Shown: positions 8,076 to 59,956 of the stretch, in pieces | Numbering within the stretch: position 1 is the first letter of the stretch | Layout of the letters: each line of letters begins with the position of its first letter | NCBI RefSeq assembly: GCF_900199725.1 | Contig: NZ_LT904904.1 | Span: 1,765,932 to 1,829,931, forward strand | Source: Cytobacillus massiliigabonensis | Lineage (GTDB): Bacteria > Bacillota > Bacilli > Bacillales > Cytobacillaceae | Length of the DNA stretch: 64,000 bases | Direction of reading: 5' to 3' | The notes under the pieces: model-generated | Database searches by the model: none | The model's input: the letters and a program-made list of their open reading frames with translations, nothing else | Told to the model about the DNA's origin: nothing | Program-made: the position numbers and the translations under genes

Positions 8076-9215
8076 ATGTCAGAAGAGATGAATCAAGTCG
8101 ATGTGAGAAATTTCGAAGTTGGCGATAAGGTTTCTGGCCTTGTTACGAAAGTGGAAGAGAAGCAAGTCATTGTTGATATTAGTGACAGCAAGCTAGATGG
8201 GATTATTCCAATTAGTGAACTATCAAGCCTGCATGTTGAAAAAGCCGGTGATGTTGTTGCAGTTGGCGATCAGTTAGATCTAGAAGTCCTAAAGGTTGAA
8301 GAAGAAGCATTAATCTTATCTAAGCGGAAAGTAGATGCGGAAAAATCTTGGCAGGAGCTTGAAGAGAAATTTAATAAAGGCGAGATTTTTGAAGCAGAAA
8401 TTAAAGATGTTGTAAAAGGCGGACTAGTTGTAGATTTAGGTGTGCGTGGATTTGTACCTGCGTCACTTGTTGAAGCATTTTTTGTTGAAGATTTCTCTGA
8501 TTATAAAGGCAAAACAATGACATTTAAGATTGTTGAATTAGAAAAAGATAAAAACCGTTTGATCCTTTCTCATCGTGCAGTTGTAGAAGAAGAGAAAGGA
8601 AAGCAAAAACATCAAATACTTGATTCGCTTCAAGCCGGTCAAGTCATTGAAGGAACTGTCCAAAGAATCACAGATTTTGGCGCGTTTGTTGACATTGGCG
8701 GAATTGACGGACTTGTCCATATTTCACAGCTTTCATATGAGCATGTTGATAAGCCTTCAGAAGTTGTTGAAGAAGGACAAAAAGTTCAAGTGAAAGTGTT
8801 AAGCGTTGACCGTGACAATGAGCGAATCTCTTTATCAATTAAAGAGACATTGCCTGGACCTTGGAGCAATATTGCAGAGAAAGCACCAAAAGGAAGTTCA
8901 CTAAGCGGTGTTGTAAAAAGACTAGTTCCCTACGGTGCGTTTGTCGAATTATTCCCAGGGGTAGAAGGATTAGTTCATATCTCACAAATTTCTCATAAGC
9001 ATATTGGAACTCCCCATGAAGTATTAAAAGAGGGCCAAGAAGTTCAAGTGAAGGTTATTGATGTGAATGAACAAGATCAGCGATTATCTTTAAGCATTAA
9101 AGAACTTCAAGAGAGAGAACAGGAAGATGTAATTGACTATGTGCTTCCAGAAGAATCAAAAGGATTCCAGCTCGGTGAAATGATTGGGGATCAATTAAAG
9201 AATTTGAAAAAATAA
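8076..9215 (+). CDS. ypfD: S1 RNA-binding domain protein (ribosomal protein S1 homologue, YpfD)
   Basis: The 379-aa protein is made of four S1 (OB-fold) repeats, at about 15-85, 100-170, 187-255 and 272-342; the last two carry the canonical DFGAFVDIGGIDGLVHISQ-like pattern. It has four repeats rather than the six of E. coli S1, as usual in Firmicutes. AGGAGG precedes the ATG; the frame extends upstream to 8019 without a ribosome-binding site. It probably binds mRNA or the 30S subunit, but is not essential for translation in B. subtilis. Confidence 0.9.
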   Translation: MSEEMNQVDVRNFEVGDKVSGLVTKVEEKQVIVDISDSKLDGIIPISELSSLHVEKAGDVVAVGDQLDLEVLKVEEEALILSKRKVDAEKSWQELEEKFNKGEIFEAEIKDVVKGGLVVDLGVRGFVPASLVEAFFVEDFSDYKGKTMTFKIVELEKDKNRLILSHRAVVEEEKGKQKHQILDSLQAGQVIEGTVQRITDFGAFVDIGGIDGLVHISQLSYEHVDKPSEVVEEGQKVQVKVLSVDRDNERISLSIKETLPGPWSNIAEKAPKGSSLSGVVKRLVPYGAFVELFPGVEGLVHISQISHKHIGTPHEVLKEGQEVQVKVIDVNEQDQRLSLSIKELQEREQEDVIDYVLPEESKGFQLGEMIGDQLKNLKK

Positions 9216-9224
9216 TGGTGATAT

Positions 9225-10277
9225 ATGGTGTCTAGATCAAAAAGAAAATGGGATCATATTCGTCTTGCTCTAGCAACTGGGCAGGAAAGAAAAGCTGGCT
9301 TTGAGGATATTACATTTATCCATCAAAGCTTGCCAAATACTTCTTTAGAGCAGGTAAAGCTGGACACGAAAATTGGCGGACTTTCTGTAAGTTCGCCAAT
9401 TTTTATCAATGCCATGACTGGCGGCGGCGGTGACCGTACTTTAGAGATCAATCGAGATCTTGCAGTTGCTGCTAAAGAATTGGGAATGGCGATTTCAGTT
9501 GGCTCACAAATGTCTGCCTTAAAGGATCCGACAGAAGCAGAATCGTATCGAGTAATTCGACATATATACCCAAGTGGAATTGTCATTGGAAATTTAGGAA
9601 GTGAGGCAACAATTGATCAGGCAAAAGCAGCGGTTGATATGATTGATGCAAATGTGCTGCAAATACATTTAAATGTTGTGCAAGAGTTGACGATGCCTGA
9701 AGGAGATCGGAATTTTTGCTCTGCGCTCACCCGAATCGAGGATATTGTAAAAGGTGTATCTGTCCCAATTATAGTTAAAGAAGTTGGGTTCGGTATGAAT
9801 AAAGAAACGGTAGCAAAGCTCCTATCCATTGGTGTTTCTGCAGTTGATGTAGGGGGATTTGGCGGAACAAACTTTGCTAAGATTGAAAATAATCGGCGGG
9901 AGAGTGCATTTTCCTTCTTTAATGACTGGGGAATTCCAACCACCGTATCAATAGCAGAAGCAAAAGCTGCAGGTGGAGAGTTTTCGGTGTTGGGCTCTGG
10001 CGGGATACAGAACAGTTTGGATATAGTCAAGGCAATTGCCCTAGGTGCTGATGCTGTAGGTGTAGCAGGCTATTTCTTGAAAATTCTTATGAAAGAGGGG
10101 GTTGAAGCTTTAATAGAGGAGCTTCATCTCATTCATAGAGAAATCGCAATGATAATGACCGCACTTGGTGCTAGAAATATGAAAGAGCTTCAACAAGCCC
10201 CGATAATTATTTCTGGTAAAACCCATCATTGGTTAAATGAAAGAAAAATAGATACGAAGCAATATAGCCAAAGATAA
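9225..10277 (+). CDS. fni: Type 2 isopentenyl-diphosphate delta-isomerase
   Basis: FMN- and NADPH-dependent isomerase interconverting IPP and DMAPP, supplying prenyl chains for the heptaprenyl menaquinone side chain made by hepS/hepT further on. The 350-aa TIM-barrel protein has INAMTGGG, VKEVGFGM, and VDVGGFGGTNFAKIEN, the FMN/phosphate-binding blocks of the IDI-2 family. It starts 9 bases after ypfD with only a weak TGGTGAT ribosome-binding site, suggesting some translational coupling. Confidence 0.93.
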   Translation: MVSRSKRKWDHIRLALATGQERKAGFEDITFIHQSLPNTSLEQVKLDTKIGGLSVSSPIFINAMTGGGGDRTLEINRDLAVAAKELGMAISVGSQMSALKDPTEAESYRVIRHIYPSGIVIGNLGSEATIDQAKAAVDMIDANVLQIHLNVVQELTMPEGDRNFCSALTRIEDIVKGVSVPIIVKEVGFGMNKETVAKLLSIGVSAVDVGGFGGTNFAKIENNRRESAFSFFNDWGIPTTVSIAEAKAAGGEFSVLGSGGIQNSLDIVKAIALGADAVGVAGYFLKILMKEGVEALIEELHLIHREIAMIMTALGARNMKELQQAPIIISGKTHHWLNERKIDTKQYSQR

Positions 10278-10283
10278 TATATC

Positions 10284-10318
10284 GAAAGGTTCTCGCATTT
10301 TGCGAGAACCTTTTTTTG
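10284..10318 (+). terminator. Terminator after fni
   Basis: A 13-bp stem (AAAGGTTCTCGCA / TGCGAGAACCTTT) with a 3-base loop, then a T run. Confidence 0.92.
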
Positions 10319-10459
10319 TTAAAGCTTATTATTATTCAAATCTCTAGCCTCTTCAGGACTCTGCATCTTAGTAGCACCAGGATAATGGAGGGCTTGGTCA
10401 CGGTCTGATTCCACCCTTTTACTTTGCTTTAATTTTCTTTCCTGACGATCTTTACCCAT
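10319..10459 (-). CDS. ypzI: Small conserved protein YpzI
   Basis: A 46-codon minus-strand gene starts ATG at 10459, eight bases after a strong GAGGAGGTG ribosome-binding site, and ends TAA at 10319. The product is very polar, begins MGKDRQERK, and contains VESDRDQ and HYPGAT followed by SPEEAR, which I recognise as the YpzI family seen at this position in Bacillus. Function is unknown. Its stop lies just past the fni terminator, so it is convergent with fni and divergent from yphA. Confidence 0.82.
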   Translation of the reverse strand: MGKDRQERKLKQSKRVESDRDQALHYPGATKMQSPEEARDLNNNKL

Positions 10460-10588
10460 CAAAAACACCTCCTCTTTATAACATGGAACGTGCTTGATGA
10501 ATTTAATCGTTAATTTAATTATTTCTATAAATTAAAGATTAAAGTACATATCAGGCAGGCATAATGGGAATAGTAGGAGGTGAGTGTT

Positions 10589-11197
10589 TTGGAGGGATTA
10601 ACCTTTTATTGGGTTTCCTGGTTTTTTTGGATAGCGGCGACCTTTTTTATGGATAAAAATCATCATTCTAGGTTTGCGCTTTCATTGTATCTTTTGTTAT
10701 TAATAATTGCCTCTCCATACACAATTGCACTTTTTGATTTTGATCTATCAATCGCTGGTTTATTTCTTTGTTGTCCACTATTTTATTTTGCCTCACGTCT
10801 AGATTGGCAAAAGATGATTTATTTGTTTATTTGTTCTTTTATTATTATGCTGGCATACGTTTGTTTCCATTTATTTGAGCTATTTGACCCTGTTTGGCTT
10901 ATATTTCCCCGTAATTGGATGCTTGCCGTCATACTGCTTATCATGTCTCTTCTTTTACATGGAAAAAAACGATATCGATTGTTTATTGTTGTGCTTGGAT
11001 CACTCCAAGGTGAGTTTTTGTATGCACTTATTTTAAGTGAATATTCATTTCCGTACGTAATTGCTTCATTGGCATTCTTAGATGTCCTTTCACTTTCAGC
11101 CATTCTCCTTGCTTTATGGAATGGAATTGAATTCTTAGCTTCATTCTATGAAAGACATTTTAATCTACTGGAAAGGGAGAAACAAAAACTATCATGA
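10589..11197 (+). CDS. yphA: Integral membrane protein YphA
   Basis: The 202-aa protein is almost wholly hydrophobic with about six membrane segments and no known enzymatic motif. The TTG at 10589 is chosen because AGGAGG ends eight bases earlier; a GTG at 10580 in the same frame overlaps that ribosome-binding site. The stop overlaps the seaA ATG by four bases, so yphA-seaA-ypzH form an operon. Function is unknown. Confidence 0.8.
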   Translation: MEGLTFYWVSWFFWIAATFFMDKNHHSRFALSLYLLLLIIASPYTIALFDFDLSIAGLFLCCPLFYFASRLDWQKMIYLFICSFIIMLAYVCFHLFELFDPVWLIFPRNWMLAVILLIMSLLLHGKKRYRLFIVVLGSLQGEFLYALILSEYSFPYVIASLAFLDVLSLSAILLALWNGIEFLASFYERHFNLLEREKQKLS

Positions 11198-57402: not shown

Positions 57403-58593
57403 ATGGAGATCAAATTAGCACATCGCGTGAAATCATTAACCCCTTCTTCAACATTGGCAATTACAGCAAAGGCAAAGGAATTAAAAGCACAAGGATTTGA
57501 TGTCATTGGTTTAGGTGCAGGGGAACCTGATTTTAATACTCCGCAGCATATAATCGATGCCGCGGTCCAATCAATGAATGAAGGGCACACGAAATATACA
57601 CCTTCAGCTGGACTTCCGGCTTTAAAAAAGGAAATCGTAAATAAATTTGCTCAAGATCAAGGCATTACTTATGATTCAAGTGAAATTATTGTAACTAACG
57701 GTGCTAAGCATGCCTTATATACATTATTCCAAGCCCTGCTCGATGAGGGGGATGAAGTCATTATTCCTACACCTTATTGGGTTAGTTATCCTGAACAAGT
57801 GAAGCTTGCAGGAGGGCTACCGGTTTATATTGAAGGAAAAGAAGAAAATGATTATAAAATCACTCCTGAGCAATTAACTTCGGCACTATCTAAGAAAACA
57901 AAGGCAGTCATCATCAACTCACCGAGTAATCCAACAGGAATGCTTTATTCTCAAGCTGAGCTGGAAGCAATAGGTGAAGTTTGTTTGAAACATGAAATTT
58001 TAATTATTTCTGACGAGATATATGAAAAATTGATATATGGAACCAATAAACACGTTTCTATTGCCCAACTTTCACCAGAATTGAAAGAACAAACAATTAT
58101 TATTAATGGTGTGTCGAAATCACACTCAATGACTGGCTGGAGAATTGGCTATGCTGCAGGAAACAAAGAGCTTATTAAAGCGATGACAAATCTAGCAAGC
58201 CATAGCACATCCAATCCGACGACAACAGCTCAGTATGGCTCTATTGCTGCTTACGCAGGTTCACAGGAAATGCTTCAAGAAATGCGTGAAGCGTTCGAGC
58301 ATAGACTCAATACTATCTATGATAAATTAATTGCCATTCCTGGCTTTACATGCATAAAGCCTCAGGGAGCCTTTTATTTGTTCCCAAATGTAAGCAAGGC
58401 GTGTGAATTAACAGGATACGAAAATGTAGATGATTTCTCTCAAGCTTTATTAGAAGAAGCGATGGTTGCAGTGATTCCTGGCTCTGGATTTGGTGCGCCT
58501 AATAATATTCGTCTCTCCTATGCGACATCTCTTGATTTATTGGAAGAGGCTGTTCGCCGGATGCATCAATTTGTTGAAGGTAAACTGAAGTAA
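57403..58593 (+). CDS. aspB: Aspartate aminotransferase
   Basis: PLP enzyme interconverting oxaloacetate/glutamate and aspartate/2-oxoglutarate. The 396-aa class I (Ib) protein has GAGEPDFNTP, NSPSNPTG, SDEIYEKLIYG and the PLP lysine in NGVSKSHSMTGWRIGYAAG. CGGAGGAAG precedes the ATG. In B. subtilis asnS follows; here its place holds a repeat array and an asnS remnant. Confidence 0.95.
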   Translation: MEIKLAHRVKSLTPSSTLAITAKAKELKAQGFDVIGLGAGEPDFNTPQHIIDAAVQSMNEGHTKYTPSAGLPALKKEIVNKFAQDQGITYDSSEIIVTNGAKHALYTLFQALLDEGDEVIIPTPYWVSYPEQVKLAGGLPVYIEGKEENDYKITPEQLTSALSKKTKAVIINSPSNPTGMLYSQAELEAIGEVCLKHEILIISDEIYEKLIYGTNKHVSIAQLSPELKEQTIIINGVSKSHSMTGWRIGYAAGNKELIKAMTNLASHSTSNPTTTAQYGSIAAYAGSQEMLQEMREAFEHRLNTIYDKLIAIPGFTCIKPQGAFYLFPNVSKACELTGYENVDDFSQALLEEAMVAVIPGSGFGAPNNIRLSYATSLDLLEEAVRRMHQFVEGKLK

Positions 58594-58596
58594 TAG

Positions 58597-58630
58597 CGAG
58601 CAGGCAGCCGCATGGGGCTGCCGCTTTTTT
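58597..58630 (+). terminator. Terminator after aspB
   Basis: GGCAGCC pairs with GGCTGCC, extended by AGC/GCT with one bulged A, then TTTTTT. Confidence 0.85.
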
Positions 58631-58639
58631 ATATGGCTT

Positions 58640-58940
58640 TGGCGAATATAATTGACTGAACGGCGAAAATATCAGCTGTTACGGCGAATATAATTGAATG
58701 AACGGCGAATATATCAGCTGTTACGGCGAATATAATTGAATGAGCGGCGAATATCCCAGCTGTTACGGCGAATATAATTGAATGAACGGCGAATATATCA
58801 GCTGTTACGGCGAATATAATTGAATGAGCAGCAAATATATCAGCTGTTACGGCGAATATAATTGAATGAACGGCGAATATATCAGCTGTTACGGCGAATA
58901 TAATTGAATGAGCAGCAAATATATCAGCTGTTACGGCGAA
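58640..58940. repeat. 42-bp tandem repeat array (seven full units plus a partial)
   Basis: Units begin at 58640, 58682, 58724, 58766, 58808, 58850, 58892 and 58934 (partial), an exact 42-base period. Each unit consists of two 21-base halves, both starting CGGCGAATATA: one ends ATTGAATGAA, the other TCAGCTGTTA. From the fourth unit on, units alternate between ACGGCGAAT and GCAGCAAAT at the second half, giving an 84-base higher-order period. The minus strand is open across the array (14-residue repeat) but its GTG start has no ribosome-binding site, so I do not call a gene. Confidence 0.93.
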
Positions 58941-58945
58941 ATAAT

Positions 58946-59098
58946 ATAAAATGGTATTTAGAATTGCGTCAATATGGCCCTGTTCCACATTAAGGGTTTG
59001 AACTTGGACTTGAAAGAACAGTTGCCTGCATTAGTGGAGTTTAACATGTACGTGAAACGATCCCATTCCCATGTTTATTAAATCGATTATATTCATAA
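58946..59098 (+). pseudogene. asnS: Decayed C-terminal remnant of asparaginyl-tRNA synthetase (asnS)
   Basis: Reading 58949 onward in one frame gives KWYLELRQYGPVPH, stop, GFELGLERTVACISGV, stop, HVRETIPFPCLLNRLYS, stop at 59096-59098. This matches the AsnRS C-terminus (Y-x-DLRxYGSVPHSGFGLG, LERTVAWI, GLEHVRETIPFPR, LLNRLYP), including class II motif 3. Two nonsense codons (TAA at 58991 and 59042) and changes of conserved residues (Gly to Glu, Trp to Cys, Arg to Cys, final Pro to Ser) show it is dead. About 50 of some 430 codons remain. It sits exactly where B. subtilis has asnS, between aspB and dnaD, and begins where the tandem array stops. Confidence 0.93.
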
Positions 59099-59102
59099 TC
59101 AT

Positions 59103-59131
59103 AGAAAATCCGCTTCTTGCGGATTTTTTCT
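59103..59131 (+). terminator. Orphan terminator after the asnS remnant
   Basis: AAAATCCGC pairs with GCGGATTTT around TTCTT, followed by TTTCT. With no intact gene before it, it is best read as the old asnS terminator. Confidence 0.85.
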
Positions 59132-59218
59132 ATTAAAGCGAAGAAGCACTTGAATGTCAAGTAGCAATTAATAGGAAGGATTGCCTTTCATATTCTCCTT
59201 ACTAGCTAGGGGTGTTCA

Positions 59219-59245: not shown

Positions 59246-59956
59246 ATGTCAAAAACAAGTTTATTAAAGTGGATCCAGGAAGGAAATGTAACAATCCCTG
59301 GAGTATTGCTCACTCATTATAAAGAGATGAATTTAGATGAAAATGAGCTTGTGCTTATACTGCAAGTAATCTCCTTTATTGAAAATGGAAATGAATTTCC
59401 TACTCCCTTTGAATTATCTTCCCGCATGACAATATCCGTTTCGGTTTGTACTGAAATTCTCCGAAAATTAGTTCAAAAAGGATTTATTGATATTAAAGAA
59501 AGCTATTCGGGAGACGATGTTCGATATGAAAGATATGATGTGGAACCGCTATGGGAAAAGCTAATTGATTACTTTCTGCTTCGAAGCAAACAGGAAGCTG
59601 TGATTGCAAATCAACAAAATGAAACAGATTTGTATACTTGCTTTGAACAAGAATTCGGTCGCCCGTTATCTCCATTCGAATGTGAATCACTTGCTATGTG
59701 GATGGATGATGATCATCATGACCCGCATATTATTAAAGCAGCCTTAAGGGAAGCAGTTATTTCTGGCAAGCTAAATTTCCGTTATATTGATCGAATTTTA
59801 TTTGAATGGAAAAAGAATGGAATTAAAACGATTGAACAAGCAAAAAGCTATGGGAAGAAATTCAGACAAAATCAAGCACCGCAGCGAAACAAACAAAGTG
59901 AGGAATCGAATCCAACTTTAAAATCCGTTCCGTTTTATAATTGGCTTGAACAATAA
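59246..59956 (+). CDS. dnaD: DNA replication initiation/restart protein DnaD
   Basis: Primosomal protein that works with DnaA/PriA, DnaB and DnaI to load the helicase. The 236-aa protein has an N-terminal winged-helix DDBH1 domain (about 1-110) and a C-terminal DDBH2 domain (about 128-200) with the YxxxIxxxW-like motif at FRYIDRILFEWKKNGI. GAAGAGGTG precedes the ATG at 59246. Confidence 0.93.
   Translation: MSKTSLLKWIQEGNVTIPGVLLTHYKEMNLDENELVLILQVISFIENGNEFPTPFELSSRMTISVSVCTEILRKLVQKGFIDIKESYSGDDVRYERYDVEPLWEKLIDYFLLRSKQEAVIANQQNETDLYTCFEQEFGRPLSPFECESLAMWMDDDHHDPHIIKAALREAVISGKLNFRYIDRILFEWKKNGIKTIEQAKSYGKKFRQNQAPQRNKQSEESNPTLKSVPFYNWLEQ

Follow-up and report, generated by a model that had tools for sequence, protein, structure and literature searches.

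The asnS locus

The window, the whole stretch of 64,000 nucleotides (64 kb) that was analysed, contains no tRNA gene and carries the 3′ end of a native asnS between intact aspB and dnaD genes (Table 1). Within the analysed genome (G000) this stump corresponds to G000:C8:1824880-1825029. As stated in an earlier note made from the DNA letters, the translation of 58946-59098 is interrupted by two in-frame TAA codons; a third TAA is the normal asnS stop. The attribution to the AsnRS C-terminus was confirmed by a family search of the whole genome, in which the stump matched positions 399-453 of NCBIfam TIGR00457 (E 6.5e-15). The match to asnS was equalled by none of 500 dinucleotide shuffles, and these two results exclude chance similarity.

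Table 1. Positions of features in the aspB-dnaD region of the window. G014 is the closest relative found.
Feature	Position	Strand	Remarks
aspB, intact left neighbour	57403..58593	+	ORF of 396 aa; 94% identical to AspB of G014
aspB terminator	58598..58626	+	hairpin 58603-58622 in pattern scan; fold -20.1 kcal/mol, z -3.0
42-bp (2 x 21 bp) tandem array, left of deletion	58641..58945		TRF, 7.3 copies, 93% matches
Deletion junction	58941..58951		right end at native codon 382; from exact-match list
asnS stump	58949..59098	+	C-terminal ~50 codons of native AsnRS; TAA at two internal positions; normal stop codon at 59096-59098
Former asnS terminator	59101..59133	+	fold -14.0 kcal/mol, z -4.3; hairpin also in G014
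dnaD, intact right neighbour	59246..59956	+	ORF; 95% identical in G014

In G014 a complete native asnS occupies the same aspB-dnaD interval, which bears out the view that the stump stands at the ancestral asnS location, and the DNA of the window is 89% identical to that of G014 across 320 bases running from 58949 into dnaD. The stump represents native codons 382-430, with 129 of 147 bases matching G014 asnS, and native codons 1-381, about 88% of the gene, are missing in G000. Loss of the native gene was thus a matter of deletion and decay, beyond stop codons alone. With AsnRS C-terminal homology found at the ancestral locus, the stump has the properties of an asnS pseudogene remnant. The terminator thought to remain behind it is indeed retained; a pattern scan for terminators listed the aspB terminator only.

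Recognisable asnS codons start at 58949, and the bases that precede them form the junction with the tandem array; G014 has a degenerate counterpart of this array between its aspB and asnS. The 10 junction bases 58941-58950 recur ~50 bases upstream of the native asnS of G014, which may be a chance coincidence. Intergenic repeats made of 21-bp units with the core CGGCGAATAT (in some GTCCAATAT) make up a family, seen at L040-L046 and L081:4704-4817 besides the window, several of them directly behind terminator-like sequence; the array in the window is the longest, and G000 has seven weaker relatives at other places.

Compared with G014, pN/pS was 0.22 in the stump, a value drawn from ~50 codons and few sites, versus 0.06 in aspB and 0.04 in nth. 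All seven residue changes in the stump, two of them stops, fell on the G000 side and none on the G014 side, where G014 equals G007 (two-sided probability of the 7:0 split, 0.016). Judged from these substitutions the stump is under relaxed constraint, and the two stops and the absence of codons 1-381 mark it as disabled. A rough neutral estimate, based on few sites, dated the loss to the final ~14-17% of the branch that began with the divergence from G014, in line with the proposal that it was fairly recent. Since the array abuts the junction, an assembly artefact concealing an intact native asnS might be suspected; this is scarcely credible, because stops stand at two residues of the stump and five more residues are changed, the family search found no other native-type piece in the assembly, the native protein had no match in it at 1e-80, and relatives show the same loss.

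An acquired asnS elsewhere in the genome

The conclusion that asnS has been lost holds for the native gene, which is reduced to the stump, and fails for the genome, which retains an AsnRS of another, acquired type. The earlier note had named an asnS elsewhere, possibly acquired, as one alternative, and an intact second gene was located at G000:C6:816473-817861. Its product scored 618 bits with TIGR00457 and 676 bits with NF003037 (cut-off 414) and shares ~40% identity with the native type (38-42% in cross hits), so that an intact equivalent, apparently from a distant clade, lies at another site. When 61 genomes were searched with TIGR00457, acquired-type hits (617-622 bits) came only from G000, from G026 of the same genus and from G058 (AFS055030) of another family; the remaining genomes gave 531-568 bits, and G043 none above cut-off. 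In G026, G058 and G043 aspB adjoins dnaD, with no asnS between them. Within the genus, scores assign the native type to 34 of 36 genomes and the other type to G000 and G026 only; close relatives, G014 at this very locus included, retain the resident gene.

Among the best 80 of 432 loci, identity to the acquired protein was 97% in Bacillus sp. FJAT-49736 and in Heyndrickxia camelliae, 91-95% in other Bacillaceae (e.g. Mesobacillus, Peribacillus kribbensis and Gottfriedia) and 78-82% in Neobacillus types; in Clostridia it did not exceed 74%. A vehicle for the gene was not found among plasmids (best identity 70.9% in the best 20 of 36 records) or phages (67.9%, 10 records).

It had also been suggested that translation might require the indirect route, in which AspRS charges tRNA-Asn and GatCAB amidates it. 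The genome search identified gatB (594 bits) and AsnB, and dependence of G000 on the indirect route was rejected, as an intact AsnRS and AsnB are both present. In an alignment the main AspRS of G000 has Leu at the place of His31 of the Pseudomonas aeruginosa enzyme and Gly at that of Gly82, positions that we take to bear on acceptance of tRNA-Asn. Bacillus AspRS was reportedly studied by Nair et al. (2016) in the context of this route.

A hit at C8:2410275 (254.8 bits) was rejected as a working AsnRS, being an archaeal-type AspRS (NF003483 571 bits, TIGR00458 404 bits). This second AspRS (L080:7270-8882, G000:C8:~2410270-2411880) has a T-box with specifier GAC (Asp) and, unlike the 1n9w, 1b8a and 1wyd rows of the alignment, no proline in the anticodon-binding loop, a residue that presumably plays a role in tRNA specificity. 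Given the specifier and the missing proline, it probably serves tRNA-Asp. NCBIfam names the archaeal-type enzyme aspartate--tRNA(Asn) ligase, and the GAC specifier points to tRNA-Asp. The archaeal type also occurs in G014 (L084), and untyped hits of 234-256 bits were obtained in G031, G015, G023 and G016.

The T-box leader and the conserved block

The leader of the acquired asnS (L077) matched the T-box family RF00230 with 110.2 bits against a gathering score of 93. T-boxes above the Rfam cut-off were also found at L078, L079, L104, L110 and the clostridial L138 (Clostridium gasigenes); none was detected above that cut-off at L097 or at any of the 11 native asnS loci tested. Read by eye in the alignment, the specifier of L077 is AAC (Asn). 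An AAC pattern, crude in that it gives other codons too, was matched at 21 of 21 loci, made up of the clade with 91-100% identity and L110, and also at L138. A T-box tail pattern was present at 19 of the 20 loci of that clade and at L110, and at none of 22 Neobacillus-type loci. From this analysis the acquired leader is a predicted T-box that should respond to tRNA-Asn charge. The clostridial T-box asnS resembles it in belonging to the same protein family and, at L138, in T-box and AAC pattern, and differs in the protein, as the identities given above indicate.

PMC2916919 describes AsnRS, like LysRS, as not T-box controlled in Bacilli, and also a Bacillus subtilis 168 strain whose asnS can be titrated; PMC2494555 places T-box control of asnS in only a few Firmicutes species. 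A literature search by titles and abstract openings returned no description of this replacement or of a T-box asnS in Bacillaceae.

Among the 21 loci compared, the block L077:~9103-10913 was common to 19 others at 85.7-90.9% DNA identity, and L110 showed 74%. By eye the conserved block consists of promoter-like sequence, T-box, asnS and a terminator hairpin. Outside it, the sharing extends over four more genes in L093, their order inverted, and over a short piece in L078 and in L100. The 21 loci, from 20 genomes, represent eight flanking contexts. L100 (JAGGQZ010000016.1), titled Chryseobacterium sp. ISL-80, has Mesobacillus-like flanks and asnS, corresponds by coordinates to G230, a genome that is grouped with the Mesobacillus ones, and is probably misnamed.

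Distribution of the two types across the order

The acquired and native proteins were used to search 397 genomes of the order (E 1e-80), with E below 1e-250 taken to define the acquired type. Twenty-five genomes had the acquired type, 353 the native type (360 with a match, less seven acquired-type genomes with cross hits near 1e-82) and 19, obtained by subtraction, neither. Twenty of the 25 fall in the 91-100% clade, and five (G189, G204, G214, G240 and G381) have a protein of an 80-83% type. Native asnS was retained in none of the 25, and an intact native asnS was found in none of 33 named carriers (33 of the 40 Bacilli-type loci L093-L132, overlapping with the 25). If the two types were independent, the probability of no co-occurrence in 25 would be 5e-28, or ~2e-6 for the six genera with both states only, values that serve as guides as the genomes are not independent.

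Seven of the 19 genomes with neither type were named and tested with the family model. An AsnRS above cut-off was found in none of the seven; gatB was present in all seven and asnB in six, the exception being G043. G043 (L092), with neither type of asnS and no asnB above cut-off, may therefore make its Asn only on tRNA. In two of the 353 genomes counted as native (G069:C1:1199076-1200364 and G141:C100:103244-104532; L203, L204) the native asnS is in two pieces with stops or a frame change, and neither genome has an AsnRS above cut-off; this is early decay or sequencing error.

Remnants of native asnS in other genomes

Native asnS was aligned to 33 aspB-dnaD intervals, 26 from replaced and seven from asnS-less genomes, and a match was accepted when at most 6 of 500 shuffles reached it, at which ~0.4 false calls are expected in 33 intervals. 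An earlier local-alignment scoring was too permissive, only G000 and G420 beating all 200 shuffles, and the stricter scoring was used. Remnants of the 3′ end were accepted in 10 of the 26 replaced intervals and in none of the seven asnS-less ones, and no 5′ remnant was accepted in any of the 33. Besides G000, the matching bases were 75/90 in G420 (Mesobacillus selenatarsenatis SF-1), 54/66 in G401 (Bacillus sp. ISL-45), 32/38 in G297, 34/40 in G289, 24/25 in G267 (AFS088145), 21/24 in G279, 24/28 in G217, 32/40 in G351 (FJAT-25509) and 19/21 in G371; G136 was marginal (21/500 shuffles). The strain names in brackets, like that of G058, come from matching coordinates. Outside G000 the remnants lie within codons 396-430. 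The ten remnants come from four genera and so amount to ~4 independent cases, and in the 16 replaced intervals with no accepted remnant the loss is read from absence. At L173, L177 and L186, all from replaced genomes, the remnant starts within ~30 bases of the end of aspB, so that transcription of aspB may now stop at the former asnS terminator.

Mesobacillus boroniphilus (G437) has a native remnant of 29 residues. In Mesobacillus maritimus MER TA 152 (G441) a full-length native asnS stands between aspB and dnaD with one in-frame stop and two frameshifts, and an acquired asnS free of stops is also present.

These remnants bear on the order of events. The native asnS could have been deleted while the indirect route supplied Asn-tRNA, the foreign gene being gained later. 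An asnS-less state seems viable, judging from the 19 of 397 genomes with neither type and from the seven tested, all with gatB; G000 has gatB as well, and many bacteria encode both routes to Asn-tRNA, according to PMC4206432. The indirect route described there combines a non-discriminating AspRS with GatCAB; G000 has gatB and an AspRS, and loss of AsnRS could thus be buffered; G000 differs in having AsnRS and AsnB and hence in being independent of the route. Loss before gain is nevertheless unlikely, because in M. maritimus the acquired gene is accompanied by a native gene that is broken but still full-length, as predicted if acquisition came first, and because remnants were restricted to the replaced intervals. 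Acquisition would accordingly have preceded loss in G000 also.

Gene histories

The acquired asnS of G000 showed a synonymous difference of 0.31 to that of H. camelliae and 0.42 to that of G026, and the twelve nearest loci listed ranged over 0.31-0.48; loci with a match length unlike that of G000, L093 among them, are skipped in these distances. As a control, the native asnS of G014 was compared with that of other genomes, and the distances were 0.66-0.73 for four within the genus and 0.71-0.84 for seven outside it. Judged by these distances, the native asnS has been in these genomes for longer than the acquired gene. For G000, aspB differed by 0.47 from G014 and 0.71 from G026, and dnaD by 0.32 and 0.56, respectively; a caveat is that dnaD of G000 and G014 (0.32) is no farther apart than acquired asnS of G000 and H. 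camelliae (0.31).

In an unrooted gene tree of 58 of 83 loci, all Bacilli rows together with G000, G026 and G058 formed one starred group (43 rows, one of them misnamed), with Clostridia outside. Since the tree is unrooted, a clostridial direction of transfer is an inference. The acquired copies of G000 and G026 were sisters (support 91), and aspB paired G000 with the native-type G014. Within the genus, one older acquisition followed by differing losses may instead account for the sequences, though the flanks differ.

The aspB tree comprised 73 genomes, of which 28 have the acquired type, 38 the native type and 7 neither. On it the acquired label changed at least 10 times, eight of the changes forced by starred branches, and at least eight times for the 91-100% (T-box) clade alone; aspB is one gene that adjoins the replaced site, and label changes do not separate gain from loss. 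In G003 (G003:C1:1562076-1563262) aspB appears as two overlapping pieces with one TGA. The history of the acquired gene thus conflicts with vertical descent, in its synonymous distances (0.31 versus 0.66-0.73) as in the at least 10 label changes, and by these sequence comparisons related bacteria seem to have made the swap several times.

The sister relationship of the G000 and G026 copies would also fit an old ancestor that had both types, with each lineage keeping one and no repeated transfer. Such an origin is very improbable: the 21 loci have eight flanking contexts, acquired asnS differs less between genera (the twelve nearest loci listed) than native asnS does within a genus, and no genome of the 397 has both types intact, which makes long coexistence unlikely.

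Discussion

In all likelihood the native asnS was displaced by a foreign T-box-asnS unit at another site, the resident becoming redundant and then being inactivated, deleted and left to drift. A self-contained unit of ~1.8 kb (promoter-like sequence, AAC T-box leader, asnS and terminator) would have entered the chromosome at G000:C6, and with two AsnRS genes the resident would have been redundant. Disabling mutations would have accumulated in it, a deletion with one end at the repeat array that follows aspB and the other at codon 381 would have trimmed it, and the remaining 3′ stump would have drifted. AsnRS supply would then follow tRNA charging, since uncharged tRNA-Asn would pair both with the AAC specifier and with the antiterminator, so that transcription could proceed into asnS. 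Counted against displacement are an unsampled donor, the unrooted gene tree, and the lack of a T-box signal at L097 and the 22 Neobacillus-type loci. The stump itself very probably survives as a broken relic since the foreign asnS took over elsewhere in the genome.

Neutral resolution of redundancy need not have driven the swap; selection could have done so, acting on the foreign enzyme or on the way it is controlled (for example tolerance of an AsnRS inhibitor, or charge-responsive expression). This is on the unlikely side: the repeated label changes of the T-box clade on the aspB tree, the AAC pattern at every one of the 21 loci and the T-box tail at 20 of them speak for it, whereas no inhibitor-linked neighbour gene was recognised when the flanking genes were viewed without a family-library scan, and the one-way appearance is partly ascertainment, since a genome from which the newcomer had disappeared would pass for native. 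As a tentative proposal, somewhat less doubtful, a compact, self-contained T-box-asnS unit may be spreading through Bacillaceae as a recurrent replacer of an essential gene. The resident would be lost by point mutations and then by a deletion sparing the 3′ end, a synthetase with no T-box control would give way to one that responds to the charge of its own tRNA, and selection on control or enzyme would drive the spread.

Horizontal transfer is known to lead to xenologous (non-orthologous) displacement of aminoacyl-tRNA synthetases, and here too the resident has given way to a foreign enzyme with the same specificity. The present case differs in that the resident is visible in several stages of decay and that related newcomers seem to have taken its place in several lineages of one order. 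The T-box class I LysRS gene (lysK) of Bacillus cereus, described in PMC2916919, is likewise regarded as horizontally acquired, has a T-box and lies away from the resident gene; there, however, the resident lysS was kept, whereas in the present case the newcomer was not accompanied by any intact resident. Within the reach of the literature search, what is new is the repetition across one order with a T-box-bearing unit, the exclusivity of the two types in the sample and the graded remnants. The recurrence and the T-box leader of the new gene were missed in the earlier note.

As a rule, the replacement of an essential translation gene is deduced from trees when the event is long past. Within this one order the stages can still be seen: native gene intact, native gene broken with the newcomer present, stumps ranging from 50 to ~10 codons, and nothing left. 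They form a natural series for asking why an essential synthetase swaps repeatedly, and the series bears on whether redundancy through AspRS and GatCAB permits the swap and on why the newcomer retains its T-box leader.
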